Origin: an uncultured Acidobacteriia bacterium
GTDB lineage: Bacteria > Acidobacteriota > Terriglobia > Bryobacterales > Bryobacteraceae
Length of the DNA stretch: 64,000 bases
Direction: 5' to 3'
Assembly: GCA_903907865.1 (NCBI GenBank)
Contig: CAIVPR010000085.1
Coordinates: forward strand, 1-64,000
Part shown: piece by piece, positions 2-29,771 of the stretch
How positions within the stretch are numbered: the first letter of the stretch is position 1
How the letters are laid out: every line of letters starts with the position of its first letter
The notes under the pieces: model-generated
The model's database searches: none
The model's input: the letters and a program-made list of their open reading frames with translations, nothing else
Told to the model about the DNA's origin: nothing
Position numbers and translations under genes: made by a program

Positions 2-493
2 CGTCCAGCCAAGGCCGGAGTGGATGGCGGTCTCATGCCGCCTTCCCCCATTGATGTTCAACAGCCGCCACCATTAAGGATAGGCCAAAAACTGTCCATA
101 CGATGGGGTCCACCTCACGGCTCGCAACTGTCATCATCAGGGTCGGATCGAATCCCAATTCAACAGGTTCGATCATCGCAGGTGTCAGGAGTGAAGATAA
201 CCCTCATTCGCATGCAATCACCGTACCCAAGAGTGATTGCATCAATGCGCTCCCCCCACAGCGGAGAAGGCGCTGAATCCATGTCCTTGGCTGCCACATG
301 GGACGGGATCCTGACGGAGACGGGAACCAAGGGCCATTTCGAAGCCCAACCAGCCCTAACGCTCGGAGACATAGCTCCGATAATCGCCAAGCGTGACCGC
401 TGGTTGTTGGGTATAACGGTACCGGGAGCGTCGGGAGATATTCTGCTTTCGGTGGACGAGATGCTTTTGAAGTTCCCGGAAATTGGAAAATAA
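2..493 (+). CDS. Hypothetical protein, 5' end cut by window edge (first gene of motor-like operon)
   Basis: I do not recognise this protein. The frame is open to the left edge, so the N-terminus is probably missing; a GTG at 20 is the first internal start codon. The visible part is about 160 residues, Pro/Ser-rich at first, then alternating hydrophobic stretches ending in a segment with LLSVDEMLLKF, which suggests a small beta-rich domain. No membrane helix is visible. Its TAA stop shares one base with the ATG of the next gene (TAATG at 491-495), so the two are translationally coupled. It belongs to the operon carrying the MotA/MotB-like pair. Function unknown. Confidence 0.55.
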   Translation, partial: RPAKAGVDGGLMPPSPIDVQQPPPLRIGQKLSIRWGPPHGSQLSSSGSDRIPIQQVRSSQVSGVKITLIRMQSPYPRVIASMRSPHSGEGAESMSLAATWDGILTETGTKGHFEAQPALTLGDIAPIIAKRDRWLLGITVPGASGDILLSVDEMLLKFPEIGK

Positions 494-1827: not shown

Positions 1828-3231
1828 ATGGCTACCGTCAACCAAGGTCTCATTGGGGCTTGCATCCTCCTGTTTCTTGTCGCGACAGCCTCTCTCTTCC
1901 GGGCTTTCGGACAGCTCCGTTCATTCGACCTGCGGCTTCGAGGACTCCCGAGGGACGTGCCGGGCCCAGACCCGTTTGACGGCAAGACACCGTTGGGACG
2001 AGCGGCGAATGAGTACTCGGCCATGTTCTCCACTGCTGCCAGCAAGAATATCCTCGGAGCGTTCCGGCCTGAGCACTCCGCAGCTCCAGTTCAGGCCGCC
2101 CTTCGTTCGTTGGTATCCACACCAAGGAGTATCGTTGGCGTTTTGATCTTGGGTGGCCTGCTAGTCACATTGTCTAATCTACAAGGCTCGGTGAAAAAGC
2201 TTGGTGATGCCTTCAGGAGCATTGGAGTCGGACAGGTGGCTATATCACAGGGCACCGCTGATGATACGGTTAGAAAAATTCAGGAGGCAATGGGGGACAT
2301 TGCCGAAAAGGCCCAATCCGCATTTACGATGAGCGGCTATGTCATTTTCGGCGCCGCTATCATATTGTTCTCTTCCATCATAATGAATGTACGCGGCCAG
2401 CGGAGTTCGCGGGAGTTCGCCGTCTGGGCGGAGACCTCCTACCTTGTGGCACTAGCGGACCGCCCCGTGGACCAGCATGCGCAACTGGCAAAGTTTGCGG
2501 AACTAATTGACAAGATGGCGACAGTGGTAGGCTCGTTCGACATGATCGGAACGTCGATGGCTTCGGTCGGTGAGCTGGGCTCGAAACTCGATTTGTCGTC
2601 ACAAGTCGTAGCGGACGCCGTAAGCCAGCTACCCGCAACCATCAACGCGTCTGTACTTAAGCTGAGCGCCGATGTTGCGAATGATTTCAGCTCCAAATTG
2701 GCCAGCCAAATGGAGTATATGAAGAAGATCTACGCTGTTTTCGGGGCGCAGGAAGATCGGGTCAGGAAGCTCCAAGAATACTTGGATGCGGTCTCCAAAT
2801 CGACCGAAGCGAATGCTCGGGTCGTCGCCGGGCTCGGCCTCCTGCCTGCGAGCTTGGAAGCTTTATCCCGTACACTACAGGCGACCACAGACGGCATGGG
2901 CCACCTCGTCTCGGCATGCACGGCACTGGCAGCAAAGGTAGATGATCTTCCGAACGCAGACATCCGCGATGTCATCAACGGCCTCGAGCTAGTGCGCAGG
3001 GAACTCCCGACATCTATGCGGCAGGCCATTACGCCAAAGCTCGATGAACTGGCGAAGACTCTGGACAGCCTTTCGCCCAAACAAGTTCTCTTGGAATTGA
3101 GGGGTCTGAGGGACTCGGTCCAACGATTGCCTGTGACGGATATTGCCGGACTCCAAGCCGCAATACAACACTTGGAGCGGACGATTCAAGGCGGCGGTCA
3201 AAGGCCGACAAGCTGGTGGAATAGGAGGTAA
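1828..3231 (+). CDS. MotA/TolQ/ExbB-type membrane protein with long cytoplasmic tail (ZorA-like)
   Basis: The 467-residue protein has three hydrophobic helices at about residues 7-26, 101-119 and 169-187. The last two carry sequence typical of proton-channel subunits (LGGLLVTLSNLQGSVKKL, then KAQSAFTMSGYVIFGAA). After the third helix about 280 residues are predicted helical and coiled-coil-like, ending in a basic tail. In MotA/TolQ/ExbB families this subunit forms a pentamer around two MotB/TolR/ExbD-type helices and uses ion flow to drive motion; Zorya ZorA has the same plan with a long intracellular tail. The next gene supplies the MotB-like partner. The start directly abuts the previous stop. 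The motor-subunit assignment is fairly firm; the Zorya-type role is inferred. Confidence 0.7.
   Translation: MATVNQGLIGACILLFLVATASLFRAFGQLRSFDLRLRGLPRDVPGPDPFDGKTPLGRAANEYSAMFSTAASKNILGAFRPEHSAAPVQAALRSLVSTPRSIVGVLILGGLLVTLSNLQGSVKKLGDAFRSIGVGQVAISQGTADDTVRKIQEAMGDIAEKAQSAFTMSGYVIFGAAIILFSSIIMNVRGQRSSREFAVWAETSYLVALADRPVDQHAQLAKFAELIDKMATVVGSFDMIGTSMASVGELGSKLDLSSQVVADAVSQLPATINASVLKLSADVANDFSSKLASQMEYMKKIYAVFGAQEDRVRKLQEYLDAVSKSTEANARVVAGLGLLPASLEALSRTLQATTDGMGHLVSACTALAAKVDDLPNADIRDVINGLELVRRELPTSMRQAITPKLDELAKTLDSLSPKQVLLELRGLRDSVQRLPVTDIAGLQAAIQHLERTIQGGGQRPTSWWNRR
3223..3228 (+). promoter_or_regulatory. Strong Shine-Dalgarno for the MotB-like gene
   Basis: AGGAGG lies at the very end of the MotA-like gene, with 11 bases to the ATG at 3240. 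It fixes that start and suggests strong independent initiation of the MotB-like subunit within the operon. Confidence 0.7.
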
Positions 3232-3239
3232 GCCACTCT

Positions 3240-3812
3240 ATGCAAGATGGCGAGGAACAGGAGGGCACCGTGTGGCCGGCCTACGTGGATTTCTTATCCA
3301 CGTTCGTATTCGTGCTGATCGTGTTTATCGGCTCGCTGTTATTCTTGCTGTCGGGAGACATCCAAAAGGGGGTTATGGACGGACTAGTCAACCCGGTGGA
3401 AGCTGACTGCAAGAGTGCCGGCCTACCATGCAGTCGGGACGGCAGCAAGATCGTGGTTCCGCTCACGGGAAAGGTTGAATTTGGAACGAACCAAGTCCGC
3501 GTACAAAAGCCACAGGAGGATTTCCTTCGGCAGGTCGGAAAGCTCTTTGAGCGGCCTGGCATTAAGAGGATCGTAGTCAAGGGAACGGCTGACATGCAGC
3601 GATGCAAGTCAGATCCATTCTGCAATTGGGATATTTCAGCCCGGCGCGCCTTGGAGGTGATCAAGTTTTACTACGACTGCATCGACTGCGGCTATGGCGA
3701 GAAAGTAAAGAAGCTTCTGGTGCTGTCGGGTGAAGGTGACACTTCCAGCACGGGAGTCACGTCGAGTGACCGCAGGGTCGACATCATATTGGATTTCAAT
3801 GCCAATCGCTAG
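3240..3812 (+). CDS. MotB/OmpA-like membrane-anchored protein (ZorB-like)
   Basis: The 190-residue protein has a short N-terminus, one membrane helix at about 18-41 preceded by Asp17 (YVDFLSTF), and a C-terminal OmpA/MotB-type domain with the signatures IVVKGTADM, NWDISARRA and SSDRRVDIIL. The Asp sits where MotB-family proteins carry the proton-binding acid. The C-terminal domain would lie in the periplasm and may bind peptidoglycan. Six cysteines form three close pairs (CKSAGLPC, CKSDPFC, CIDC), which could be disulfides. With the upstream three-helix protein this makes a complete stator-like pair as in Zorya ZorA/ZorB. The next gene starts 14 bases before this stop. Confidence 0.75.
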   Translation: MQDGEEQEGTVWPAYVDFLSTFVFVLIVFIGSLLFLLSGDIQKGVMDGLVNPVEADCKSAGLPCSRDGSKIVVPLTGKVEFGTNQVRVQKPQEDFLRQVGKLFERPGIKRIVVKGTADMQRCKSDPFCNWDISARRALEVIKFYYDCIDCGYGEKVKKLLVLSGEGDTSSTGVTSSDRRVDIILDFNANR

Positions 3813-4845
3813 CAAAACTCCAAGTTTTTGGGCCCGCCTCGCATCGCCTGTGACTTCTGCGGTCGCCGTTAGAAGAGCGCGGAACGACTTTGAGGCTGAA
3901 TACGGCGCGATTAGGAGCATGCGCGGCTGGCGACCAACATACAAAGCTTCAAGAGATGCGCTCAAGCCATTGCGAACACGTCTTGGACGGATCCAGCAAG
4001 ACATACAACGAGACAGTGAGCGCGGGAATCGCCGCGAAATCGATGCGCTCTCCTCTGCTCGGAATAAAGTCGCAGAAATCAGTCGGTCCTTGGACCTGCT
4101 TATGGCCCAAGAGACGAAATGGAGCGCCAAGGCCGTGGCCATCGAGGCCGAGATAGACACGGCATGGCAGATGTCGGCCACTATTCCGGGCAACGAGGTG
4201 GCGGTAGCGGTGGACCGACGGAAACATGAAATCGAGTCACTCCTGCGGTGGATTATTGACTGCGATACAGCGGCCAAGATTGAGCAGGGCCTGCTAACGG
4301 CCAGCCGCTCGCTTCAGGCCTTGCAGGGGATCGTCCAACAGGCGCACGAGGTCCGGACGGGATGGCCCCGGCTGAAGGAGTTGATCGGTGGGTTCAACGA
4401 CAGTGACATTCAACGCGATGTAGCCTTTCAGGAAGCTTTTAACCGACTGCTTGGCATGTCCAGTCAGGTAGAGCTTTCACTAAAGCTTTGCAAGTACGAT
4501 ATTGGATTTCGTTCACTGGGCCAAGCATTCAGGCTGGTAGATGACCTCCGTAGCGATTTGGACAGGCGGTCGAGTCTCGCTCGGGAGGAGATTGACCTCT
4601 GGCTGGACGACCAAGAGATTGCGATGAGGTTCGATCTGCGCCGATTCCCAGCAAAATTGTCGAATGCGGAAGCACTTCAGTGGCTTGAGCTCCGGCCTGA
4701 GATTGGTCGAATCGTTGATGAGAGGGCCTCCAAGGCGTGGAAATTGTACGGTGCTTTGCGGTCGTCCGACAGGTTTCCCTCGTGGAAGGAGCTGGATCGC
4801 TGGAACATCCTGATCGCCCATTGTCGATCGACATGGCCGTCATAA
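3799..4845 (+). CDS. Hypothetical helical/coiled-coil protein, last gene of motor-like operon
   Basis: I do not recognise this 348-residue protein. It is charged and almost entirely helical by inspection, with heptad-like stretches from about residue 27 to 130 (RRARNDFEAEYGA, LRTRLGRIQQDIQRDSE) and more helices later, and several conserved-looking Trp residues near the C-terminus (LQWLELRPEIGRI, FPSWKELDRWN). No nuclease, helicase or transmembrane motif is visible. The ATG at 3799 lies inside the end of the MotB-like gene (14-base overlap), so translation is coupled. It may link the membrane complex to an intracellular partner; that is inference. It is not an obvious ZorC, ZorD or ZorE. Confidence 0.6.
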   Translation: MPIASKTPSFWARLASPVTSAVAVRRARNDFEAEYGAIRSMRGWRPTYKASRDALKPLRTRLGRIQQDIQRDSERGNRREIDALSSARNKVAEISRSLDLLMAQETKWSAKAVAIEAEIDTAWQMSATIPGNEVAVAVDRRKHEIESLLRWIIDCDTAAKIEQGLLTASRSLQALQGIVQQAHEVRTGWPRLKELIGGFNDSDIQRDVAFQEAFNRLLGMSSQVELSLKLCKYDIGFRSLGQAFRLVDDLRSDLDRRSSLAREEIDLWLDDQEIAMRFDLRRFPAKLSNAEALQWLELRPEIGRIVDERASKAWKLYGALRSSDRFPSWKELDRWNILIAHCRSTWPS

Positions 4846-5280: not shown

Positions 5281-6387
5281 ATGGCTAGACTCAAGACGTC
5301 GATCTTTATCGCAGCAGCAGCCCTCATCACCGTGGGCACCGCGGCGGCCCAAACACTTCCCGCCTGGAGTCCCGAGGCTGCTGCGGGGTATCTTGACGGT
5401 CGGGCCTCCTGGTGGATGGACTGGCCGAAGGCCCAACGGGATCACGGCACATTCTGTGTTTCCTGCCATACGCTGGCACCATTCGCCCTAGGGCGGCCAT
5501 CGTTGCGCGGTGCCCTGCACGAAACCAGCCAGTCGCCCAACGAAAAGCGGATGCTGGAAAACATCACGCGCCGGGTCCGGATGTGGAAGGAGGTTGAGCC
5601 CTTCTATGCCGACCAGACTTCGGGCCTGCCGAAGACTTCGGAGTCACGCGGAACCGAGGCTATTTTCAACGCCCTGATTCTGGCCTCGAACGATGCTCCA
5701 TCCGGCAAGTTGGGTGCCGATGCAAAGCTCGCATTGGACAACATGTGGGCGCTACAACTCAAAACCGGGGATATGAACGGGGCGTGGGCGTGGTTGCAGT
5801 TCCACAATGCCCCGTGGGAAGGTGATTCCCAGTTCTACGGCAATACGCTGGCGGCGCTGGCTATTAGCATCGCTCCAGGTGGATACGCGGGTGAACCCGG
5901 CATCCAAGGCGGACTGAAGAGTCTGCGGGCCTGGCTCCAGAAGAACATGGGCACGCAAACTCCGGCCGACCGGGTGGTGCTGCTCTGGGCGTCGGCCAAA
6001 CTTTCCGGCCTGCTTTCGAGGGAACAGCAGGAACAGATCGTTGCCGAGACACTGGCCAAGCAGAAGGACGACGGAGGCTTCAGCATGTCGACCCTGGGCG
6101 GCGGGTGGAAACGGCGGGACAATACGCCGATCGACCCCGCCAGCGATGGCTACGCCACGGGCATTGTGGCGTTGGCGTTGGAAAATGCCTCCGTTCCTGC
6201 CGCCGCACCGGCGCTGGCTCGCGCACTTGGCTGGTTAGCACGGAACCAGCAACAGTCCGACGGCAGATGGGCCGCCACTTCTATGAACAAGCAACGAGAA
6301 CTGTCTTCCGACGCGGGACTCTTCATGAGCGACGCCGCCACAGCATACGCCGTGATGGCCCTCGCCAACGCGGCCCCAAGGAAATAG
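5281..6387 (+). CDS. Exported c-type cytochrome/alpha-alpha toroid (prenyltransferase/squalene-cyclase-like) protein
   Basis: The 368-residue protein starts with a signal peptide (MARLKTSIFIAAAALITVGT, cleavage near AAAQ), which selects the ATG at 5281 over one at 5170. A single heme-binding motif, CVSCH, is at 59-63. The remainder has repeated helical segments with Gly-Trp and DGG/DGRW-type turns (KQKDDGGFSM, QQQSDGRWAA), as in squalene-cyclase/terpenoid toroid folds. It would sit in the periplasm and carry one heme c. It lies upstream of the amine dehydrogenase genes on the same strand, so a redox or substrate-handling role in that pathway is possible but unproven. It is probably not a real squalene cyclase: too short, and no DXDD motif was seen. 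Confidence 0.65.
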   Translation: MARLKTSIFIAAAALITVGTAAAQTLPAWSPEAAAGYLDGRASWWMDWPKAQRDHGTFCVSCHTLAPFALGRPSLRGALHETSQSPNEKRMLENITRRVRMWKEVEPFYADQTSGLPKTSESRGTEAIFNALILASNDAPSGKLGADAKLALDNMWALQLKTGDMNGAWAWLQFHNAPWEGDSQFYGNTLAALAISIAPGGYAGEPGIQGGLKSLRAWLQKNMGTQTPADRVVLLWASAKLSGLLSREQQEQIVAETLAKQKDDGGFSMSTLGGGWKRRDNTPIDPASDGYATGIVALALENASVPAAAPALARALGWLARNQQQSDGRWAATSMNKQRELSSDAGLFMSDAATAYAVMALANAAPRK

Positions 6388-6421
6388 ATTCTTTCTATCA
6401 GCCCGTTCATAAATTGTCCGA

Positions 6422-6450
6422 TTGACATCCCGCAATACCCGTGGAAGAAT
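6422..6450 (+). promoter_or_regulatory. Candidate sigma-70 promoter for the TonB receptor/amine dehydrogenase operon
   Basis: A perfect TTGACA at 6422-6427 is followed after 17 bases by AAGAAT at 6445-6450 (four of six matches to TATAAT) in an AT-rich stretch. A transcript from here would have a leader of about 160 bases before the ATG at 6617. Confidence 0.4.
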
Positions 6451-6616
6451 AAATTCACATTCCCCGTCTTGCTCACAGTAGTAATCCTGAAGCTCATAGC
6501 GTCTTGAGCCTGTCCCCTCGAACTGGACACAAACCCATCCAGCGCAGCTTGCCGCCAATGTACCCGCCATGGCAGCGCTTTGTCATCACAAATACGCTTG
6601 ATTACGAGGGTGAACA

Positions 6617-9600
6617 ATGACTGAATTTCGGCTCGGAATGAGCAGGATCGGGAGCTTTCCCAATCTCCTGCCCGTCATCACGCTTCTATGGGCCTGCGCC
6701 ATCGCGCAGGGCCAATCGACCTTCGGGTCATTCACCGGAACCGTCAAGGATCCGTCGGGCGCAGTTGTCGCCACTTGCAAAGTGACGATCCGCAATACGG
6801 GCACGGACTCCGCGCGCTCACTACTTACCGACGCCAATGGGACCTATGTGGCAGTGAACATGGAACCTGCGACGTATGAGATCACGATGGAGGCACCGGG
6901 TTTCGAGCCCAGCAAGTACACCCACATCCAACTGCAGGCGCGGCAGGCGGCCCGCATCGACGGTACTCTCTCGGTCGCCAGCCAAACACAGGCCATCATG
7001 GTGTCGGAGGCGGCGGAAGCGCCCATCAACACGGAAGTCTCAAACATCGCAGAGACCAAGCTGGGCCGGGAGTTGAACGATCTACCCGTGGCAATCGGGT
7101 CCAGGGCTACCGGTTCCACCAGCGCTTTTTCGACATTGACGACGCAACCCGGTGTGGAAGTCGACAACAGCGGCAACCTCTCTGTGGCTGGCTCGAAGCC
7201 GAGCATGTTGTCGGTCAGCATCGACGGCATCAGTTCGACGAGCCCGCGCAACAGCGCGCCGATCTCGGAACTCTTCCCGTCGTTTGACGGCATCGCGGAG
7301 ATCCGCGTGAGCGAGATTAACAACAGCGCCGAATTCGGCGGCATCAGCGACATCACAACCATCTCCAAGAGCGGGACAAACGCCTTCCACGGCGGCTTGT
7401 ACGAGAACAATCAGAACACGGTGTACGACGCACGGAACACGTTCAGCGCGACGGTGCCCAAGCTGGACATGAACGACTTCGGCTTGTTTGTCGGCGGACC
7501 GGTCTTGTTGCCGAAGATATACAACGGCAAGGACAAGACGTTCTTCTTCCTGAGCGCCGAAGCGCTACGCCTGCCAAAGCAGCAGGTGCTGGTGGAGAAC
7601 ATGCCGTCACTGGCGCTGCGCAGCGGCGACCTCTCCAGCTATTCGACGGCGATTCTAGATCCCACGTCGCACACGCCTTTTCCGGGCAACCAGATTCCGC
7701 AGAGCCTAATTACACCGCTCTCGAAGGCGGCACTCAAATATTTCTATCCGCTTCCCAACACCGGGTCCCCGAATTCGCTGGTGAGCAACTATGTTACGAA
7801 CTTCCCGACCAGCGTGAGCAGCGACCAAGGCGACATGCGCGTCGACCGCAACCTCACCGCGAAGCACTATCTCTTCGCCCGCGCTACCTGGAAGTACAAA
7901 TTGGGACACACGGCACCTTCGGGGTCCCCTTTAACTGGGTCCAACCTGCAGCCGGAACACGACTACGCAGTTACGGTGGCGCACAACTGGGTGGTAACCC
8001 CGACGATGGTGAACGAATTGCGGGGCGGGCTGAGCGGCTCGAACACGGCGAACAGCTACGGCGTCAGCGCCCTGACGGCGGCCACCGAGACGGGCCTGCT
8101 GCCCTATTTGCCACAGGCCCCCCCTGCGGGAAGCGCTGTGCCGAACTTCAAGATTTCCGGCTTCCAGAGCACCGGCAGCGGTGCATCTTCCATCTCGAAG
8201 ACTTCTACTTGGCAGATCATCGACAACTTCACCGTCACAAAGGGAAAACACACCCTGAAGGTCGGCGGCGACTTCCGGTACCTGACCGCGCTCTACACCA
8301 ATGTTTTTGCGACAAGCCGGCTGGGCCAGTACACCTTCAACAACTCGGTGACGAAGTCGCTGGTCGGAAATGCGTTTGCATCGTTCCTGCTGGGCATTCC
8401 GGACAGCGACCAAATCTCCACGGTGCTGAATCCCGATTCCAGCGGCTACGCCAAGAGCTATGCCGGCTACGTGCAGGATGACTTCAAGGTCACTTCGCGA
8501 CTGACAGTGAACTACGGCATGCGGTGGGAGTACCATCCGATGTTCAACGACCGGAACTCCAACACCGCGAACTTCCTGCCGGACTACTCCTCCATCCAGA
8601 ACGGCGTCTCGGTACACGGAGCTGTGGTGGTGGCCGACAAGGCCGTGCCTCTGATCAACCCGGCCTTCGCGCAATCCATCCTGCCGATGCAGATCCTGAC
8701 CGCCAGCCAAGTGGGCATTCCGCAGAGTCTGCGCTACTCGCAGAAGACGGATTTTGCGCCGAGAATCGGTTTCGCGTGGCGCATCACCCAGGACGGCAAG
8801 ACCGTGCTGCGCGGCGGTTATGGCAAGTTCATCGAAGCCCAGTTGGGTAATCTGCTGAATGCCGCTTGGGCCGTTGAGGCGAGCGACCTGGCTGCTTTTA
8901 CCAACAGCGTCTCGAACGGCAAGGCGGCGTATACGTTCCCCTACCCGTTCCCGTCGAATCTCGCACAGCCGGGCTCGCAGATTTTCGATCTATCCTCGAA
9001 CCTGCACTACAAGGATCCCTACGTGCAGCAATGGAATCTGACAGTGGAACGCGACCTTGGCTATCAAGTCGGGCTGCGGCTGTCCTATGACGGAAGCCAC
9101 GGCTCGAACCTTGGCCTGACCGACAATCCCGACCAGGTTCCCGCCAACACCGCCGGTTTCTCGGCCGCGACCAAGTTCGCCCCGTACCCGCTGTTCAACC
9201 AGATTGTGGAGGAGACGAACGGCGGAATGAGCAATTACAACGCGTTCACGGTCTCAGTGAACAAGAGAATGTCGAAGGGCGTCCAGTTCCAAACCAGCTA
9301 CAACTTCGCGAAGAATCTTTCCGACAATGGCGGCTACAACCCCTCGGCCTTCGCCGGATCGGGCGGTGGCCAGACGACGGACTATTTCCATCCCGCGCTC
9401 GACTACGGCAATGTGGCCTTCACGCGCCGCCAGCGATTCCTCACTACGTTCCTCTACGAAGTGCCGGCGCTCAGCAAGAACAAGGCGCTGAAACTGGCGA
9501 CGGGCGGGTGGGAACTTTCGGGTGTGCTGCTCTACCAGCCCGGACCATTCCTGACGGTGACGGCAAGCGGAGCTGATCCTTCGGGCACGAATTTCGTGAA

Positions 9601-9979
9601 TCTAAATGGCAACGGCCGCGCGGACATCGTCACCGGGGCGTCAATTTCCCCTGCGACCCGGAGCATCACGCAGTGGATCAACCCGGCCGCGTTTGCCATT
9701 CCGGCCAACAACATCGGGCGCTTCGGGAACTCCCCGGTAGGCTCGGTGGTGGGTCCGGGGACGCAGGCCGTTTCCCTCTCGCTGCTGAAGACGTTCGTAA
9801 TTACCGAGCGGGTGAAAATGCGCTTCGGAGCCGCCGCGTCGAACGCGTTCAATCACCCGAACTACGGGTCGCCCGGGACAACATTGGGCACCTCGTCATT
9901 CGGTATTATCAGTTCATTGCAGAGTGCGGAAGGGGCGGCGCCCCGCTCGCTTCAAATGAGTGGCAGGATCACGTTTTAA
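6617..9979 (+). CDS. TonB-dependent receptor with N-terminal carboxypeptidase-regulatory-like domain
   Basis: The 1,120-residue protein has a signal peptide ending near AIAQGQS, an N-terminal carboxypeptidase-regulatory-like beta domain (GTVKDPSGAVVATCKVTI, about residues 35-115), a plug region (QPGVEVDNSGNLSVAGS, VSIDGISS) and a long 22-strand-type barrel with many Tyr/Asn-rich strands, ending in Phe as outer-membrane barrels do. This architecture is very common in Acidobacteriota. It sits 18 bases upstream of qhpA on the same strand, so it may bring amines, amine-bearing glycans or peptides into the periplasm, or supply a cofactor precursor. The substrate cannot be read from sequence. A second in-frame ATG at 6653 would give a shorter signal peptide. 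Confidence 0.85.
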   Translation: MTEFRLGMSRIGSFPNLLPVITLLWACAIAQGQSTFGSFTGTVKDPSGAVVATCKVTIRNTGTDSARSLLTDANGTYVAVNMEPATYEITMEAPGFEPSKYTHIQLQARQAARIDGTLSVASQTQAIMVSEAAEAPINTEVSNIAETKLGRELNDLPVAIGSRATGSTSAFSTLTTQPGVEVDNSGNLSVAGSKPSMLSVSIDGISSTSPRNSAPISELFPSFDGIAEIRVSEINNSAEFGGISDITTISKSGTNAFHGGLYENNQNTVYDARNTFSATVPKLDMNDFGLFVGGPVLLPKIYNGKDKTFFFLSAEALRLPKQQVLVENMPSLALRSGDLSSYSTAILDPTSHTPFPGNQIPQSLITPLSKAALKYFYPLPNTGSPNSLVSNYVTNFPTSVSSDQGDMRVDRNLTAKHYLFARATWKYKLGHTAPSGSPLTGSNLQPEHDYAVTVAHNWVVTPTMVNELRGGLSGSNTANSYGVSALTAATETGLLPYLPQAPPAGSAVPNFKISGFQSTGSGASSISKTSTWQIIDNFTVTKGKHTLKVGGDFRYLTALYTNVFATSRLGQYTFNNSVTKSLVGNAFASFLLGIPDSDQISTVLNPDSSGYAKSYAGYVQDDFKVTSRLTVNYGMRWEYHPMFNDRNSNTANFLPDYSSIQNGVSVHGAVVVADKAVPLINPAFAQSILPMQILTASQVGIPQSLRYSQKTDFAPRIGFAWRITQDGKTVLRGGYGKFIEAQLGNLLNAAWAVEASDLAAFTNSVSNGKAAYTFPYPFPSNLAQPGSQIFDLSSNLHYKDPYVQQWNLTVERDLGYQVGLRLSYDGSHGSNLGLTDNPDQVPANTAGFSAATKFAPYPLFNQIVEETNGGMSNYNAFTVSVNKRMSKGVQFQTSYNFAKNLSDNGGYNPSAFAGSGGGQTTDYFHPALDYGNVAFTRRQRFLTTFLYEVPALSKNKALKLATGGWELSGVLLYQPGPFLTVTASGADPSGTNFVNLNGNGRADIVTGASISPATRSITQWINPAAFAIPANNIGRFGNSPVGSVVGPGTQAVSLSLLKTFVITERVKMRFGAAASNAFNHPNYGSPGTTLGTSSFGIISSLQSAEGAAPRSLQMSGRITF

Positions 9980-9997
9980 GACTGGACACCGACAACA

Positions 9998-11779
9998 GTG
10001 AAACTCAATCGACGCTTCACCGTACAACTCGCGGCTTCGATGGCCTTTCTGCTCCTCGGAGCCGCGCCGGAGGTTCGCGCGCAGCGGGGCGGCAGGGGTG
10101 GCGGCAGTGCAGCCGCCTCGGACGAGAAACCCGACGAGGGCATTCCCGTCACGAACCCGCTGGTTATTTCCAAGTGCGGCACCTGCCATGCCAAGGACGC
10201 GAAGGGCAATCTCTCGCGGATCTCTTGGGAGCGCACGACCCCGGAAGGCTGGGAAGAGGCCATCAAGCGCATGGTCAGGTTGAACGGACTCACCATCAGC
10301 CCCGCCGACGCCCGCACCGTGGTGAAATACCTCTCCACCCACCACGGTCTGGCACCCTCCGAGGCGAAACCGGTGATGTACATGCCGGAACACCGGCTGA
10401 TCGACGAGACCCTGATCCCGAACGACGCGGTGCGCGGCGCGTGCACAACCTGCCACGCCATCGGCAGGGCGCTTTCGTGGCGCCGTTCGAAGGATGACTG
10501 GAAGCTGCTGCAGAATATGCACGTGGCGCTCTACGCGCAGGCTGAAACCCACTTCCGCAGTGCGGGTCGGGGCGGCGGCGCACCTCCCGGCCAGCCTCCT
10601 ACCGTAACCGTTGCTCCGGGCACGCCGCCCGGACCCGAGCCTGGAGAGGCGGCGCTGGATTTCCTCAGCAAGTCGGCACCGCTCCACACGCCCGAATGGG
10701 CCGAGTGGCGTGCACGGCTTCGGGTACCCCGCATGGCTGGAAAATGGCTGGTCTCCGCCACTGTTCCGGGCTACGGAAAGTACGTGGGAGAAATGATGAT
10801 TGAGCCTGGACCGGCCGAGGACGAGTTCAAGACATCCGCCACACTGAAGTCGGTACTCACGGGAACCGTGCTCAAGCGCACCGGGACGGGTCTGGTCTAT
10901 GCCGGCTACTCGTGGCGCGGGCGCTCGAAGGGAACGGCGGCCAAGAATCCGAAACCGGACGACGCGAACAGCGATGCTCGAGAGACGTTATGGATCTCGC
11001 CGGATCAACAGTGGGCCGAGGGCCGCTGGTTTTGGGGTTCCTATCAGGAATTCGGCTTCGACGTCAAGTTGGTCCGCGCTGCGACGGAGCCCACCTTGGT
11101 CAGTGTGGCGAATTATGCCCTCAAGGCCGGCGAAGTCGCCCAACTCAAAGTATATGCGGATGCCCTGCCAGCGACGCTCGATCCAGCTGATCTGGACGTG
11201 GGAGCCGGGGTCAAAATCAAGCGCCTCGTCAGCCACACCAAGACAGAGTTCGTGGCCGAGGTGGAAGTTGCCAAGGATGCGGTGCCGGGAAAGCGCGATA
11301 TAGCTTTCGGGCGCTCTACCCTGCAAGGCGCATTTGCGGTTTACGACAAGGTTGACTACTTGAAAGTTACTCCTGAAACTTCTTTGGCGCGACTCGGCAG
11401 CGACGTGCATCCGAAGGGCTATCAACAGTTCGAGGCGATCGGATTCAACAACGGTGCCGACGGGAAACCGCACACGGCGGACGACGTCGAACTCGGGCCG
11501 ATCGATGTCAACTGGGCAGTAGAGGAGTTTATGGCAGTCTACGGCGACGACGACAAGGCATTCGTGGGGAATCTGAGTGAGACGGCGTTTTTCACGCCAG
11601 CCTCCGATGGCCCAAATCCAGAGCGCAAGTTCAGCCGGAACAACTATGGCGACGTGTGGGTGGTCGCCACGGCAAAGAAAGAAAAGGACAAGGATGGGAA
11701 ACCTCTGACCAACCGATCCTATCTCGTTGTCACGGTACCAACCTATATCAAGTGGGATCAACCCGAGGTTTCTCAATGA
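9998..11779 (+). CDS. qhpA: Quinohemoprotein amine dehydrogenase alpha subunit (diheme)
   Basis: The 593-residue periplasmic subunit carries the two c-type hemes of quinohemoprotein amine dehydrogenase, which oxidises primary amines to aldehydes and passes electrons from the CTQ cofactor of the gamma subunit to a carrier. A GTG start gives a signal peptide ending near EVRAQ. Heme motifs CGTCH (60-64) and CTTCH (149-153) lie in the N-terminal cytochrome domain; the remainder has Ig-like beta domains typical of this subunit. Gly/Pro-rich stretches after the signal peptide (QRGGRGGGSAAASDE) and around AGRGGGAPPGQPP look like linkers. The stop overlaps the start of qhpD (ATGA). Confidence 0.9.
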   Translation: MKLNRRFTVQLAASMAFLLLGAAPEVRAQRGGRGGGSAAASDEKPDEGIPVTNPLVISKCGTCHAKDAKGNLSRISWERTTPEGWEEAIKRMVRLNGLTISPADARTVVKYLSTHHGLAPSEAKPVMYMPEHRLIDETLIPNDAVRGACTTCHAIGRALSWRRSKDDWKLLQNMHVALYAQAETHFRSAGRGGGAPPGQPPTVTVAPGTPPGPEPGEAALDFLSKSAPLHTPEWAEWRARLRVPRMAGKWLVSATVPGYGKYVGEMMIEPGPAEDEFKTSATLKSVLTGTVLKRTGTGLVYAGYSWRGRSKGTAAKNPKPDDANSDARETLWISPDQQWAEGRWFWGSYQEFGFDVKLVRAATEPTLVSVANYALKAGEVAQLKVYADALPATLDPADLDVGAGVKIKRLVSHTKTEFVAEVEVAKDAVPGKRDIAFGRSTLQGAFAVYDKVDYLKVTPETSLARLGSDVHPKGYQQFEAIGFNNGADGKPHTADDVELGPIDVNWAVEEFMAVYGDDDKAFVGNLSETAFFTPASDGPNPERKFSRNNYGDVWVVATAKKEKDKDGKPLTNRSYLVVTVPTYIKWDQPEVSQ

Positions 11780-13221
11780 CGGCTACCGCGACCCGCACGT
11801 ACCGTCCGGGGGAATTCCACGACTTCGAGGCTTCCGGTCGCAGATTCGTCTATCTGGTGCCCGCCGGAGCCGTCTTCGAACTGGACGGAGCCGCCGAACA
11901 GATTGTGGAACGCCTGCGGACAAAAGAGGCCGACCATGACGAACTGATGGCAGAACTGGTGTCGGAAGGCTATAGCTACACCGACGCCGACGAACTGCTC
12001 GGGGAGTTGTATCACTCGCACCTGATCGTCTCAGGGGAGACAGTACGGGAGCCATTGGCCAATCCGCCGGCGGATTTCCCGCTGCAGTCGCTCGTGATGA
12101 ATCTCACGAACCAGTGCAACCTGTCCTGTACTTATTGCTATGAATTCGGGGAGGACAAGGTCGCCACGCCGGAGGGCAAGCCCAAGTTCATGGATCTGGA
12201 GACGGCCAAGGCATCGGTCGACTTCCTGCTTTCACAATCGGGCGACCGGAGGGCCGTCCACATCACGTTCTTCGGCGGCGAGACGCTGATGAACTTCCCG
12301 CTGTTGAAGAACGTTGTGGCTTACGCCAGCGAGAAGGCTGCGGAGGCTGGACGTGAAATCGACTTCAGCCTCACCACCAACGCGACCCTGCTGACTCCCG
12401 CGATCATCGAGTTCCTTTCGGAGAACCGGATCGGCGTAACCGTGAGCATGGACGGTCCACCGGACCTGCACAACAAGCTGCGCGTGTTCGCGAACGGACG
12501 CGGAAGCTATGACATCATCGAGCCCAGGGTGAGGGCGCTCATTGCGAATCACCGTACCCGCCCGATCACCGCGCGCGTGACGCTGACCAGCGGCGTCACG
12601 GACGTTGTCCGGATCTACCGACATCTCAAGCAGGATCTCGGCTTCCACGAGGTTGGATTCGCGCCGGTGACAACCTCGCCGGACCGCCTGTACTCCATCA
12701 ACGAGCCGGGCATGAGGGGCGTGTTCGAGCACTTCCGCAGCCTCGCAGACGAATGGCTGGAGTTCGCGCTGCGCGGGGAGATGCATGGCTTCTCGAATGT
12801 AAGTGACACGATTGCCGAACTTATCCAGGGAGTCAACAAGTCGCACCCATGCGGTGCCGGCTTGGGACTTATGGGGGTCGGCCCGTCTGGGGACATCGCT
12901 CCGTGCCACCGGTTTGTGGATTCCGATGTCCATGCCCTCGGAAACATCGCCACCGGCATCGACCGTGAGAAACAGAGCGAGTTTCTTACCCGGGGCCACG
13001 TCAATTCGAAGTACGATTGCCACACCTGCTGGGCGCGTCCGCTGTGCGCGGGCGGGTGCCATCATGAAGCCTTCGTGCGCTATGGGGACACAGGACACGC
13101 GAATCTGCATTACTGCGACTGGATTCGTGAGTGGACCGACACCTGTCTCCGCATCTACGGCGCAGTCAGTGCGCAGAACCCCCAGTTTCTCGAACAGTTT
13201 GCCGAAAGGAAAGCACTATGA
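11776..13221 (+). CDS. qhpD: Radical SAM/SPASM maturase of quinohemoprotein amine dehydrogenase
   Basis: The 481-residue cytoplasmic enzyme makes the Cys-to-Asp/Glu thioether crosslinks in the gamma-subunit precursor. The radical-SAM cluster motif CNLSCTYC is at 114-121, followed by FFGGET near 165-170 and a Cys-rich SPASM C-terminus (HPCGAG, APCHRF, CHTCWARPLCAGGCHHE) for auxiliary iron-sulfur clusters. The N-terminal about 95 residues form a PqqD/RRE-like helical region that could bind the precursor leader. The ATG at 11776 is chosen because it overlaps the qhpA stop by four bases. The stop in turn overlaps the start of qhpC, its substrate, so enzyme and substrate are co-translated. Confidence 0.92.
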   Translation: MTATATRTYRPGEFHDFEASGRRFVYLVPAGAVFELDGAAEQIVERLRTKEADHDELMAELVSEGYSYTDADELLGELYHSHLIVSGETVREPLANPPADFPLQSLVMNLTNQCNLSCTYCYEFGEDKVATPEGKPKFMDLETAKASVDFLLSQSGDRRAVHITFFGGETLMNFPLLKNVVAYASEKAAEAGREIDFSLTTNATLLTPAIIEFLSENRIGVTVSMDGPPDLHNKLRVFANGRGSYDIIEPRVRALIANHRTRPITARVTLTSGVTDVVRIYRHLKQDLGFHEVGFAPVTTSPDRLYSINEPGMRGVFEHFRSLADEWLEFALRGEMHGFSNVSDTIAELIQGVNKSHPCGAGLGLMGVGPSGDIAPCHRFVDSDVHALGNIATGIDREKQSEFLTRGHVNSKYDCHTCWARPLCAGGCHHEAFVRYGDTGHANLHYCDWIREWTDTCLRIYGAVSAQNPQFLEQFAERKAL

Positions 13222-13544
13222 AGCACATCCGGGCAGTGAATAAGAAGGCGCGTCGCATCGACGAAATGGTTTCGTCCCGCAACGCAGACGTGGTAGCACT
13301 CCAACAGCAGCGCCCGCATGTGCCGATGGGTTGCGCCCTCTCGTTCTCCCCTGGCTGGGAGGTTGATTCTGCTGGCGGTACGGCCGGCCTGTGCCAGCCT
13401 GTCGAACGCGACATTTACGACTGCTACGTGACCTGTTTCTGGCCCGCGCAGGTTCCCGACCATCTCAACAACTACCCCGACTGGGCGAACGCCTGCGCCG
13501 CAGCCACCAAGGACTGGCGCAAGTTGGATCTGGTTTTCCCATAG
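13218..13544 (+). CDS. qhpC: Quinohemoprotein amine dehydrogenase gamma subunit precursor (CTQ-bearing)
   Basis: The 108-residue precursor is a leader of about 32 residues without a Sec-type signal, followed by the crosslinked core. Using Paracoccus mature numbering plus 32, every cofactor residue is present: Cys39-Glu48 (7-16), Cys59-Asp65 (27-33) and Cys73-Asp81 (41-49) for the thioether bridges, and Cys69 and Trp75 (37 and 43) for cysteine tryptophylquinone. The core reads GLCQPVERD and DCYVTCFWPAQVPD. The catalytic Asp (33 in Paracoccus) is one of these. The basic leader (HIRAVNKKARRIDEM) is probably recognised by QhpD and removed later. The ATG at 13218 overlaps the qhpD stop by four bases. 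Confidence 0.93.
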   Translation: MKHIRAVNKKARRIDEMVSSRNADVVALQQQRPHVPMGCALSFSPGWEVDSAGGTAGLCQPVERDIYDCYVTCFWPAQVPDHLNNYPDWANACAAATKDWRKLDLVFP

Positions 13545-13580
13545 ACAGACACGGTTCCAGACACCCAGGAAGGATCCAGC

Positions 13581-14681
13581 ATGATGAAAAATACAGCTCT
13601 CGGAATCTGTGTCTTCGCGCTATCCGGCGTATCCCTGTTCGGCGGCTCCCTCTTCATGGGAGCCTATCCGAGCTCGCTGCTCGTCTTTGACGAGGCGAAG
13701 GGACAGGTTGCCGACCGCATTCCACTCGCGACGGGCTTGCCGACAAGCATCAAGCTGTCGATGGACCGCAAGACGCTTTACGTGACGACGAACGACCACA
13801 GCGGTATCGAAGTCGTGGATGTGGCCACGCATAAGGTCACGAACCACTTTGTGCTGAACACGGCGACGAAGCGCTACCGTTTCAACGGCGGCACGCCCGA
13901 CCCCGACGGGAAGTTGTTCTACACCGTTGCCACCGAGATCAACAAGCTGGTGGACCAATTCGAAATCGGCAAGCCAAAGTATACGGTGATCGACCTCGCG
14001 CAACAGAAGATCGTGAAAACGTATGATCTGGCGAAGGAGGAGGAAACTGCCGCTGGCGGAGGGGGAGGCGGCGGTCGCGGCGGCTTCGAGATTTCGAAGG
14101 ACGGAAAGTATCTCTACCAGTTCGGCTCCAAGGTCGTGATCATCGACACCGCCGACTTCAAGGTTGTGGATCGGATTGATCTTGCCAAGCCCGACCTTCC
14201 TGGTCTCGAGAGCGCGGGCTTCGGCGGCATGCTGGACTCGATCTCGGAACCCGGCCAGCACATATCCCTGTTCAACGCCTCGGACCCCTACGTTCACAAC
14301 CGAATCTTCGGTATCGGTCGATTCGATCTTGGAACGCGCCGCGTGGATTTCGCGCCGATGGGTCCCGCGCCCGCGGGCATGACTGGACTGCAGGTAACTC
14401 CGGACAAGAAAGATGCCTACACCGTCGTGTCCACGGGACTGCAGGGCAACAAGCGCTGCGAGTTCTGGCACTTCGACCTTGCCACGAACAAGGTGACGGA
14501 ACGCAGCGAGTTCTCCTGCAAGTCGAGGTTCAGCTTCGGCATGTCGAAGGACGGCAAGAAGCTCTATATCTACGGTGCGAGTTTCGAGATCGAAGTGTTT
14601 GATGCCGCCACGATGAAGTACGAAAGGACTTGGGACCTGAACAACGACATTACGATGGCGGGTCTGATTGAAGTCGAATAG
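13581..14681 (+). CDS. qhpB: Quinohemoprotein amine dehydrogenase beta subunit (beta-propeller)
   Basis: The 366-residue exported protein has a signal peptide (MMKNTALGICVFALSGVSLF) and repeated propeller-blade sequence such as SSLLVFDEAKGQ, KTLYVTTNDHSGIEVVD and KKLYIYGASFEIEVFD. The beta subunit of this enzyme is a seven-bladed propeller that cradles the gamma subunit near the active site. A poly-Gly insertion (GGGGGGGRGG, about residues 160-169) is unusual and probably a flexible loop. A Shine-Dalgarno-like AGGAAGG precedes the ATG. The alpha/beta hydrolase gene begins 14 bases before its stop. Confidence 0.88.
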   Translation: MMKNTALGICVFALSGVSLFGGSLFMGAYPSSLLVFDEAKGQVADRIPLATGLPTSIKLSMDRKTLYVTTNDHSGIEVVDVATHKVTNHFVLNTATKRYRFNGGTPDPDGKLFYTVATEINKLVDQFEIGKPKYTVIDLAQQKIVKTYDLAKEEETAAGGGGGGGRGGFEISKDGKYLYQFGSKVVIIDTADFKVVDRIDLAKPDLPGLESAGFGGMLDSISEPGQHISLFNASDPYVHNRIFGIGRFDLGTRRVDFAPMGPAPAGMTGLQVTPDKKDAYTVVSTGLQGNKRCEFWHFDLATNKVTERSEFSCKSRFSFGMSKDGKKLYIYGASFEIEVFDAATMKYERTWDLNNDITMAGLIEVE

Positions 14682-15684
14682 GTTCCTGCTGGCTGTCTTG
14701 ATCGCTGTGCTGCATTTGGCCTTGCCAGCAGCGGGACAGAACACCGCGTGGAACCGGCCGTTGTACAGTAAACTCGGATTGTTTTTCGAACGGCCCGTGG
14801 TAGTAGGTTCCGATCCATGGAAGCTGGCCGGACTCCTGTCCGTTCCGACCACAGCCGGTCGACATCCGGGCGTTGTACTGGTTCATGGAGCCGGACCCAA
14901 CGACCGCGACGAGAAGATCTACAGTACCCGCATGTTTGCCGATCTCGCGGAAGGTCTGGCGTCACGCGGGATTGTGACGTTGCGGTACGACAAGCGCACA
15001 AGAGCTTACGGGCCGCAGATGTCGGCAATTGCGTACACGCTGCAGGAAGAGACCGTGGAGGACGCGGTGCGAGCCTTGGCGTTGCTACGGCAACAGCCGG
15101 AAGTGGACCCGAACAAGCTATTTGTCATCGGGCACAGTCTGGGCGGCTATGCGGTTCCCCGCATTGTGAAGCAGGCGGGCAGCGTGGCGGGCGCGGTTCT
15201 GCTGGCGGCCAATGCCCGGCGGATTGAAGACATCAGTATCGCCCAAACCGAATACATGCTGGCTGCAAAGGGCGGTGCGTCGCCTGAGGAAGCGCGCAAA
15301 ATGGAACTCATGAAGGCGGAGGCGGTGCGCGTGCGCGAGTTGGCACCGGGGAAGGAACATCCCCAGATCCTCTTGGGCCTTCCCGTCGAGTACTTCCTAG
15401 ACTTGAAAAGCTACGATCCTGCAGCGGAGGCAAAGCGACTCGGCATTCCCCTGCTGGTCTTGCAGGGCGACCGCGACTTCCAAGTGACAAAAGTAGATTT
15501 CGAGTTGTGGCAGAAGGGACTTGCCGGAGCCAAGAATGTGAAATTCCACGACTATGGCGTTTTGAACCACCTGTTCATGTCGGGCGATGGCCCCTCGTCG
15601 CAACTCGAATACCGCAAGGGCGGCAACGTCGCAGCTGCGGTGATTGACGATATCGCCACGTGGATTGCGGGTTCCAAGCAATGA
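14668..15684 (+). CDS. Exported alpha/beta hydrolase (dienelactone hydrolase/S9-like)
   Basis: The 338-residue protein has a signal peptide (LLAVLIAVLHLALPAAGQ), an HGAG oxyanion-type motif (residues 73-76), the nucleophile elbow GHSLGG with Ser157, and a C-terminal DRD-to-His segment (LLVLQGDRDFQV, VLNHLF) that supplies the other triad residues. It is a periplasmic esterase or peptidase of unknown substrate. The TTG start at 14668 overlaps the end of qhpB, and the stop overlaps the multicopper oxidase start, so it is part of the operon. It might release amines or act on the aldehyde product; that is speculation. Not a standard Qhp protein. Confidence 0.8.
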   Translation: MKSNRFLLAVLIAVLHLALPAAGQNTAWNRPLYSKLGLFFERPVVVGSDPWKLAGLLSVPTTAGRHPGVVLVHGAGPNDRDEKIYSTRMFADLAEGLASRGIVTLRYDKRTRAYGPQMSAIAYTLQEETVEDAVRALALLRQQPEVDPNKLFVIGHSLGGYAVPRIVKQAGSVAGAVLLAANARRIEDISIAQTEYMLAAKGGASPEEARKMELMKAEAVRVRELAPGKEHPQILLGLPVEYFLDLKSYDPAAEAKRLGIPLLVLQGDRDFQVTKVDFELWQKGLAGAKNVKFHDYGVLNHLFMSGDGPSSQLEYRKGGNVAAAVIDDIATWIAGSKQ

Positions 15685-17000
15685 CCCGGCGGGAGCTTCT
15701 GCGCCTGGGCGGGAGTGTACTCGCGGCCAACGCACTCCAAGGTGCAACCCCGGCTGACGTTACGTTGACGCTGAGCCGTTTCGCTGTGGAGCTAGGTCCG
15801 GGGAAGACGATCCGGACGGTTGGCTACAACGGCCAAGTCCCGGGACCGCTGATCCGCTTCACGGAAGGCAAGACAGTTTCGGTCGACGTCATCAACCAGA
15901 CTTCGGAGCCCGAGATGGTGCACTGGCACGGTTTCCACATCCCGCCGGACGTTGATGGAGCGCACGAGGAGGGTACGCCGATGGTCCAAGGCAGGGACCG
16001 ACGCCGCTACACCTTCACGCCCAACCCGACTGGAACGCGCTGGTACCACGCCCATGCGATGGCGGGACACGACCTGACGAAGGGAACGTATTCCGGGCAA
16101 TTCGGGATGGCGATCATCGAACCATCTGGAACCGGCGGCCAAGGGAATCCGGCCCGCTTTGACCAAGACGTGCCCATCATCCTGCACGATTGGGATCCGT
16201 TCTTCTCGTCCGACCACGAAATGGACGTGGACTACCGGCTGAGTTCCATCAACGGGAAAATGCTTGGCGCCGGGGACCCAGTTCGTGTGAAGCGCGGGCA
16301 GCGCGTGCTCTTCCGGGTCCTGAACGCGAGCGCCACGTTGCAACACAGATTGGCGTTGCCGGGGCATTCCTTCGATGTGATTGCGCTGGACGGCAATGCG
16401 GTCGCCAGACCTGGCAGAGTTCCGGTGCTGGACCTCGCTCCCGGAGAGCGGGTGGACGCCATTGTGGAAATGAACGCTCCAGGCGTGTGGGTTTTCGGCG
16501 AGGAAGACGCCAAGTTGCGCGGGGCAGGCTGCGGAATCGTGGTGGAATACGGTGGCGCAGTGGGTAAGCCGCAATGGGCTCATCCCGCCCCCTTCACTTG
16601 GGACTATATGCTCTGGGGCCAAGCCGCAGAGCAGCCTTCCGCCAATCCGGTGCCGCTGGTGATCGAGCCCCGCTCCGACGGCAACCTGTGGGCGATCAAC
16701 GGGAAATCATATCCGAAGACGGATCCGTTTTTCGTAAAACCCGGGATCCGCAACCGGCTCATCTTTGACAACCGCAGCGACATGGCGCACCCGGTGCATC
16801 TGCACCGGCACACGTTCGAGATCACCCGGTATGCAGGGAAACCAACTTCGGGCGTCTTCAAGGATGTGGTGGTCGTGCCAGCCAAGAGCGTTGTCGAAGC
16901 GGATCTTATGGCGATGAATCCGGGGCCCTCGCTATTCCACTGCCATCAGCAGTTCCACATGGATTTCGGGTTCATGGCCCTGATGCAGTACGAGCGGTAA
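15681..17000 (+). CDS. Tat-exported multicopper oxidase (laccase-like)
   Basis: The 439-residue protein has all copper motifs: HWHG (81-84), WYHAH (121-125), HPVHLHRHTF and HCHQQFHMDFGFM near the C-terminus, giving type 1 and trinuclear type 2/3 sites, with Met as likely type 1 axial ligand. The N-terminus MTRRELLRLGG is a twin-arginine signal, suiting export of a folded copper protein. Such enzymes couple oxidation of an electron donor to reduction of oxygen to water. Being last in the amine dehydrogenase operon (ATGA overlap with the hydrolase stop), it could accept electrons from the hemes or oxidise a product. The copper oxidase call is firm; its partner is inferred. Confidence 0.88.
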   Translation: MTRRELLRLGGSVLAANALQGATPADVTLTLSRFAVELGPGKTIRTVGYNGQVPGPLIRFTEGKTVSVDVINQTSEPEMVHWHGFHIPPDVDGAHEEGTPMVQGRDRRRYTFTPNPTGTRWYHAHAMAGHDLTKGTYSGQFGMAIIEPSGTGGQGNPARFDQDVPIILHDWDPFFSSDHEMDVDYRLSSINGKMLGAGDPVRVKRGQRVLFRVLNASATLQHRLALPGHSFDVIALDGNAVARPGRVPVLDLAPGERVDAIVEMNAPGVWVFGEEDAKLRGAGCGIVVEYGGAVGKPQWAHPAPFTWDYMLWGQAAEQPSANPVPLVIEPRSDGNLWAINGKSYPKTDPFFVKPGIRNRLIFDNRSDMAHPVHLHRHTFEITRYAGKPTSGVFKDVVVVPAKSVVEADLMAMNPGPSLFHCHQQFHMDFGFMALMQYER

Positions 17001-17072: not shown

Positions 17073-19184
<2,112 letters not shown>

Positions 19185-29690: not shown

Positions 29691-29771
29691 TTGGTGCGAC
29701 CTGCTGCGTTGTTTCTTTTCAATGACATAGCCAAGGCGCTGTTTGGCAGAACACTTGCAGCTACTGTCGCC

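Follow-up and report, generated by a model that had tools for sequence, protein, structure and literature searches.

Both solved structures of quinohemoprotein amine dehydrogenase (QHNDH), 1jju and 1jmx, come from Paracoccus and Pseudomonas. The qhp/pea operons of these organisms share the gene order qhpA-qhpD-qhpC-qhpB and a diheme alpha subunit; according to PMC7876137, qhpE, qhpF and qhpG belong to known qhp operons and are all said to be needed. For the gamma subunit QhpC, the sections of PMC8172795 used here place cysteine tryptophylquinone (CTQ) at Cys37-Trp43 and the thioethers at Cys7-Glu16, Cys27-Asp33 and Cys41-Asp49. They also describe PapB, a QhpD homologue that makes six Cys-Asp thioethers in the ranthipeptide freyrasin; unlike that of QhpD, the product of PapB is a peptide and not an enzyme subunit. 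Parts of PMC5023235 and PMC6662431 were drawn on as well. Here we describe a qhp locus of an uncultured Acidobacteriia bacterium (genome 7.5 Mb) at 5281-17000 of the window, the first 64 kb of contig CAIVPR010000085.1 (C85, 179 kb). With a probability of roughly 0.7, we read it as the structural portion of a QHNDH system from an acidobacterium, one that would work with an outer-membrane receptor, a maturation set on another contig (C147), a heme-toroid partner, and an accessory hydrolase and multicopper oxidase (MCO).

Open reading frames and their translations gave eight genes, all on the forward strand: heme-toroid, receptor, qhpA, qhpD, qhpC, qhpB, hydrolase and MCO. An earlier note on this DNA had described a qhpADCB core with short overlaps, and reading frames, spacing and family scores confirm it. 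QhpA (9998-11779) scored 543.6 bits on TIGR03908 (cut-off 274.35), matched 1jmx_A (E 6.7e-60) and contained alpha-subunit domains I-IV and two c-type heme motifs (CxxCH). QhpD (11776-13221), the predicted radical S-adenosylmethionine (SAM)/SPASM maturase of QhpC, reached 650.6 bits on TIGR03906 (cut-off 453) and 286.7 bits on the PapB model, under the cut-off of 340. QhpC (13218-13544; 108 residues with leader), the predicted CTQ precursor, scored 145.8 bits on NF037958 (cut-off 50), and alignment to 1jju and 1jmx indicated that every CTQ and thioether position of the solved enzymes is retained. Judged by these scores and aligned residues, the locus is a QHNDH locus.

The genes from receptor to MCO (6617-17000) are packed head to tail. 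qhpA begins 18 bases after the receptor gene, four-base ATGA overlaps join qhpA to qhpD, qhpD to qhpC and the hydrolase gene to the MCO gene, qhpB follows qhpC after 36 bases, and qhpB overlaps the hydrolase gene by 14. Because of these gaps (18, -4, -4, 36, -14 and -4), the receptor-to-MCO genes likely form one transcription unit; the toroid gene lies 229 bases upstream of the receptor gene. Promoter and terminator scans gave no excess over shuffled sequence (3 sites vs 2.7 and 9 vs 11.9, respectively), and the top promoter-like match, ahead of the receptor gene at 6422-6450, does not count as evidence.

The system resembles those of Paracoccus and Pseudomonas in the qhpA-D-C-B order, the diheme alpha subunit, the CTQ residues, the three Cys-to-Asp/Glu positions, QhpD, QhpE, QhpF and a QhpG-like protein. 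It differs from them in a fifth cysteine and Asp104 in QhpC, a divergent QhpB, a short QhpG (351 residues; the NCBIfam model has 423 positions), and the receptor and accessory genes packed with qhpADCB. Three proteobacterial operons with 9-kb flanks together contained an exporter, a protease, flavoprotein monooxygenases and regulators; that of Cupriavidus also had an aldehyde dehydrogenase. The earlier note had placed the additional partners outside the described systems, which holds to the extent that the annotation of these three plasmid operons, whose PLSDB gene tables are incomplete, lists neither a TonB-dependent receptor nor a toroid or MCO up to 9 kb away from qhpC.

We compared the locus with two samples: the best 80 of 193 named loci matching QhpC, and 396 genomes from across Acidobacteriota, 29 of them with qhpC. 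The samples overlap, since L171 is taken as the same contig as L035; L171 was excluded from the QhpD tree, receptor tree, toroid alignment, QhpC rows and QhpA/QhpB cysteine counts. L035 is titled a Bordetella parapertussis metagenome-assembled genome (MAG), yet it gave the same matches as contig C25 of G187, of the window's family, and its title looks wrong. We call loci Bryobacterales-type if they are like the nearest named QhpC relatives, which are MAGs titled Acidobacteriia or Bryobacteraceae.

A tblastn search with the genome's own QhpG, QhpF and QhpE found none of them within the first 24 kb of the window. The three genes are consecutive on C147 (qhpG-qhpF-qhpE, 11752-15185 of 16580), which rules out loss of the maturation genes. 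QhpE scored 169.6 bits on NF049966 (cut-off 165). QhpF, which sits between qhpG and qhpE, was 70% identical to QhpF of L041, and its best 25 NCBIfam matches included no QhpF model. For QhpG (11752-12807), 7ctq ranked first both by profile (E 7.9e-11) and by fold (E 4.1e-17). The nearest relative compared, L032, has a contiguous qhpF-qhpE-toroid-receptor-qhpADCB-hydrolase-MCO arrangement, its flank starting inside qhpF. C147 ends 1.4 kb past qhpE, in a stretch that is matched 13 times across the genome (at least 10 of these matches are at contig ends), and the start of C85 lies in another repeat with 9 matches. Foreign-looking genes that are not part of the system (20-4845, forward strand; MotA-like by eye, and OmpA/ZorB-like) fill the stretch between the start of C85 and the toroid gene. 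The gene at 1828-3231 is present in 1 of the 396 genomes (E 1e-15), and the gene at 3240-3812 weakly matched ZorB1 (E 2.3e-09). We found no direct overlap of the C147 end with the C85 start. We consider it quite probable that what was once a single locus has been divided by a foreign island and a repeated element, which also interrupted the assembly. With qhpG-qhpF-qhpE elsewhere in the assembly, and neither an aldehyde dehydrogenase nor a regulator among the eight genes, the self-contained pathway claimed in the earlier note did not hold. By eye, the translation of C147 15234-16346 (L124), after qhpE, is von Willebrand A-like and looks foreign.

Short QhpG occurs in the window's lineage and in sphingomonads; used as a query, it had no match in 25 of 29 phylum-sample loci (a set that counts G377 twice and excludes the locus itself). 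Absence of QhpG from other acidobacteria is countered by long QhpG-like proteins in L175, L178 and L184 (open frames of 465-524 residues). The upstream flavoproteins of these three loci, the three scanned, scored 191-251 bits against a cut-off of 240.

One difference within the enzyme lies near the end of QhpC (residues counted from M1 at 13218). At position 93 (codon 13494-13496), all 110 acidobacterial or sphingomonad-type rows have Cys, where all 11 canonical rows have Ala; position 104 (codon 13527-13529) was Asp in each of the 110 and Gln (8/11) or Gly (3/11) in the canonical ones. Both 1jju and 1jmx lack Cys93 and Asp104. The 110 rows are the window, 80 named loci, 28 phylum-sample loci and one sphingomonad plasmid; they hold 104 distinct sequences and are not independent. 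The canonical rows are 11 operons (7 Paracoccus, 2 Leisingera, 1 Cupriavidus, 1 Pseudomonas) out of 25 matched non-sphingomonad plasmid records. As an alignment pattern, the fifth cysteine with Asp104 is new: the literature covered, most of it as titles and abstract starts, held nothing on a five-cysteine QhpC or on acidobacterial qhp neighbours. The aligned rows present it as a single deep split and not as independent covariation. Because L175, L178 and L184 combine Cys93 with a long QhpG, the fifth cysteine is independent of short QhpG. Known Cys-to-acid spacings in QhpC are 9, 6 and 8; C93-D104 is 11 and C93-D99 is 6, with Asp99 present in both groups. QhpD may form an additional Cys-Asp thioether in QhpC. 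An apparent C-terminal difference between the lineages was dropped, as the acidobacterial rows are tblastn segments that end where the query ends.

Sphingomonadales qhp loci such as L062 and L067 share the five-Cys QhpC, the short QhpG and a nearby TonB receptor. That receptor is of another family (plug plus barrel, PF07715/PF00593), and the flanks carry TPR-sulfotransferase, methylamine dehydrogenase-heavy-chain-like and Mo-dehydrogenase/2Fe-2S genes, with no hydrolase or MCO match. On a quick QhpD tree with a midpoint root the Sphingomonadales loci nest among the Bryobacterales-type loci, which suggests transfer of qhp between phyla. Further qhp copies were observed in two places. G377 has two distant copies (L166, L167), and QhpC of L166 is Paracoccus-like in places, still with Cys93 and Asp104. 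In L041, a second, opposite set of QhpE, QhpB, QhpC, QhpD and partial QhpA homologues lies downstream of the first on the same contig (15866-19718).

The TonB-dependent-receptor-like outer-membrane protein (6617-9979; PF25183, 1.3e-206) combines an OMP_b-brl_4 barrel with an N-terminal CarboxypepD_reg domain. Among the 185 stretches of the genome that resemble it, the runner-up is 36% identical. A quick tree of 33 rows grouped 19 receptors from qhp loci on one branch (SH-aLRT 100; 41-87% identical to that of the window), which excludes the closest paralogue of the own genome. The remaining 14 rows comprised eight paralogues from the own genome, the receptor at 29691 of the window, and five receptors of other subfamilies from qhp loci (L032, L079, L080, L153, L166). 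This branching puts the receptor in a subfamily that occurs next to qhp. At a threshold of at least 500 bits, 10 of the 60 named loci with at least 7 kb of flank upstream of qhpC had a receptor there at 6-8 kb, and 14 of 80 had one anywhere in the available flanks; in one of the 10, L057, the toroid gene stands between receptor and qhp. The receptor was linked in 6 of the 29 qhp genomes of the phylum sample, including the own genome, all in its class. In L074, L078 (Edaphobacter modestus), L153, L168 and L170 a member of the subfamily is encoded on the strand opposite to qhpC, at a distance of 3.7-8.6 kb, so the link is kept despite rearrangement. A role as importer of pyrroloquinoline quinone (PQQ) was set aside, because CTQ is made in place and PqqU in Acidobacteria is, in the parts of PMC12124388 used, reported for Vicinamibacteria only.

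The heme-toroid protein (5281-6387; ATG at 5281, open frame from 5170) has one CxxCH and, by eye, an N-terminal signal. Its AlphaFold2 (AF2) model is an alpha/alpha toroid (pLDDT 88.1). Squalene-hopene cyclases led the fold search (Z 22.0), followed by cellobiose 2-epimerases (20.6) and GH105 (20.1), and were matched by profile (E 5.8e-15); the cyclase C-terminal family match of 23.1 was below the cut-off of 26.1. The catalytic motif of squalene-hopene cyclase is DxDD. Among 26 aligned toroid homologues, DxDD occurred in none and CxxCH in all, so the protein shares the toroid fold with the cyclases and differs from them in CxxCH, the missing DxDD and the N-terminal signal. No cytochrome Pfam family matched at E 0.01, and toroids filled the fold-search lists.

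Toroid homologues (at least 38% identity) were present in 16 of the 396 genomes, 11 of them with qhp against 1.2 expected (Fisher, 1.5e-10). Seven further genomes had matches of 32-37%, none with qhp; the own genome also has such a copy, and these matches look like a second subfamily. Their inclusion gave 3.4e-08. Relatedness inside families is uncorrected in the Fisher tests that set families f1-f3 apart from the rest: in f2, whose genome count was taken from the listing of the MCO phylum search, 3 of 6 toroid genomes had qhp vs 3/43 (p 0.0016), and outside f1-f3, 7 of 9 vs 22/349 (p 4.8e-08). Linkage does not explain this co-occurrence, because only three genomes (the own genome, G116 and G352) carry the toroid gene at about 8 kb or less from qhpC (the two contigs of G188 were too short to tell). 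As a possible dedicated redox or assembly partner of QHNDH, the heme-toroid protein is the strongest candidate. The receptor and the toroid protein, both named as qhp partners in the earlier note, are thus associated with qhp in relatives, and the conservation of neighbours on which it had made its reading depend extends to these two; the hydrolase-MCO pair is kept only in part of the Bryobacterales-type loci.

The exported alpha/beta hydrolase (14668-15684; PF12697, with NF041096 below cut-off) has an alpha/beta fold and lacks the N-terminal region found in 8 aligned qhp-linked relatives. The MCO (15681-17000; PF07731/07732/00394; HCHQQFHMDFGF) has three cupredoxin domains, copper motifs and an RR start that looks like a twin-arginine (Tat) signal by eye. 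It is like bacterial laccases and CueO (6vow, 2xu9) in its three domains and copper motifs, and differs in gene context and, by alignment, in an axial Phe at the type 1 (T1) copper where 6vow has Leu. Of the 80 named loci, nine had the hydrolase, the MCO or both: L032, L038 (MCO cut by the contig end), L039, L041, L043, L044 and L052 carry the two together, L034 the hydrolase alone and L050 the MCO alone. In the phylum sample, neither gene stood at the locus in any of the other 28 qhp genomes, with under 3.2 kb of downstream sequence in L173 and L187. We take the pair to be an accessory cassette that some Bryobacterales-type loci carry.

Taken together, the genes suggest the following working. 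The receptor would import an amine or an amine-bearing compound across the outer membrane. QhpD would install the cross-links of QhpC in the cytoplasm, QhpG would hydroxylate its tryptophan, QhpE would trim the leader and QhpF would export QhpC. The alpha-beta-gamma enzyme would then deaminate primary amines in the periplasm, with electrons passing via its two hemes. The cassette more likely acts on substrate release or on a product than as sole electron sink.

Several observations weigh against this reading. QhpB (13581-14681), of beta-propeller type, scored only 65.3 bits on its best family, TIGR03907 (cut-off 223.2), and matched 1jmx_B weakly (E 1.3e-05); because of the TIGR03907 score it is classed here as a divergent beta subunit. 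The best NCBIfam match of QhpG, NF049967, reached 60.4 bits of a required 240. Six receptors from qhp loci or the window fell outside the receptor clade, in a comparison that drew solely on loci chosen for qhp and nine own-genome receptors. The co-occurrence tests carry the uncorrected relatedness noted above. The toroid copy of G107 has an in-frame stop, and 18 of the 29 qhp genomes, including both others of the own family, have no toroid homologue (judged at E 1e-20), so the toroid is not required for QHNDH. This last count, with the 5 of 16 toroid genomes that lack qhp, would fit a toroid gene that is unrelated to QHNDH in function and matches qhp in distribution or synteny only. We regard that as unlikely, given that the two co-occur even when unlinked (about 2 Mb apart in G225, about 3 Mb in G241, on other contigs in G301, G333, G167, G077 and G107) and that the toroid lies near qhp in 10 of 80 named loci at varied positions and on either strand. 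For Cys93 the balance is even between an extra thioether and a free, structural or intersubunit-disulfide cysteine. The C93/D104 split tracks one deep divide, as a lineage-specific structural residue might, and W89, D99 and W100 of the same C-terminal part are invariant too. Against this stands the restriction of Asp104 to the rows with Cys93. An invariant disulfide partner is also lacking in both other subunits: in QhpA (97 rows) only the four heme-cysteine columns had Cys in at least 15% of rows, and the two such columns in QhpB (106 rows; 72/105 and 62/104) were not invariant.

For the MCO, the earlier note had proposed direct oxygen reduction, with uptake, amine oxidation and a terminal oxidase in one self-contained unit. 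The genes are indeed adjacent and overlapping, and copper motifs and axial Phe are kept in 8 of 8 full-length qhp-linked MCOs, the window's included; an axial Phe or Leu accompanies higher T1 potential, according to the parts of PMC6487685 used. MCO and qhp also co-occurred in excess overall (p 1.1e-05) and outside f1-f3 (qhp in 5 of 6 MCO genomes vs 22/349, p 3.6e-06). However, MCO homologues (E 1e-60) were found in 37 of 396 genomes, of which 11 have qhp and 26 lack it; the own genome was the only one of that sample with the MCO next to qhp. There was no association in f2 (3/28 vs 3/43, p 0.27). An MCO was missing from 72 of the 80 named loci, four of which have less than 3.2 kb of downstream sequence, and from the loci of the 28 other qhp genomes. 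Axial Phe is a family-wide trait, since 9 of 9 unlinked homologues share it. The neighbourhoods of these nine held a short 30% match to the QhpF ATPase part (L203) and a 31% receptor match (L210); tblastn found no other hydrolase, toroid or qhp homologue there. Since the MCO family is also common in genomes that lack qhp, we find no support for direct oxygen reduction; it was dropped as the leading explanation after the phylum search and the nine neighbourhoods, and we consider it very unlikely. The commonness of the family, the patchy cassette (5 changes on the QhpD tree for rows with more than 3.2 kb downstream, 6 for all rows) and the qhpF-qhpE genes that occupy its slot in other relatives would also suit a passenger role for the pair, in which a generic envelope cassette entered the qhp operon of a Bryobacterales ancestor and has no connection with amine oxidation. 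This seems somewhat doubtful. The pair stands between qhpB and convergent qhpE-qhpF in L039, L044 and L052 (the hydrolase alone in L034), and stays with qhp in L041 despite rearranged maturation genes. Linked MCOs were 63-71% identical to that of the window (the cut L038 copy 53%), against 44-55% for the nine unlinked ones (tblastn).

Beyond the locus, the next gene (17073-19184, opposite strand) is PNPase by translation. The translation of 60407-62476 is, by eye, a PQQ-dehydrogenase-like quinoprotein with CxxCH.

Returning to the QHNDH system as a whole, we tentatively propose that acidobacterial and sphingomonad-type enzymes form a separate class. In this class QhpD would add a Cys93-Asp104 (or Cys93-Asp99) thioether, giving four Cys-acid bonds besides CTQ; the Terriglobia would have a dedicated outer-membrane receptor, and many members a heme-c toroid redox partner of a kind for which we found no description. 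QHNDH serves as a model in the study of protein-derived cofactors and of radical SAM enzymes whose substrates are whole proteins, and the acidobacterial type adds a second lineage to that of the solved structures. Its invariant extra Cys/Asp pair lends itself to testing how QhpD selects and counts its cross-links. Members of the heme-toroid family are candidate redox proteins whose fold resembles that of terpene cyclases. The receptor link bears on which amines soil acidobacteria use, and suggests a substrate too large or too scarce for porins.

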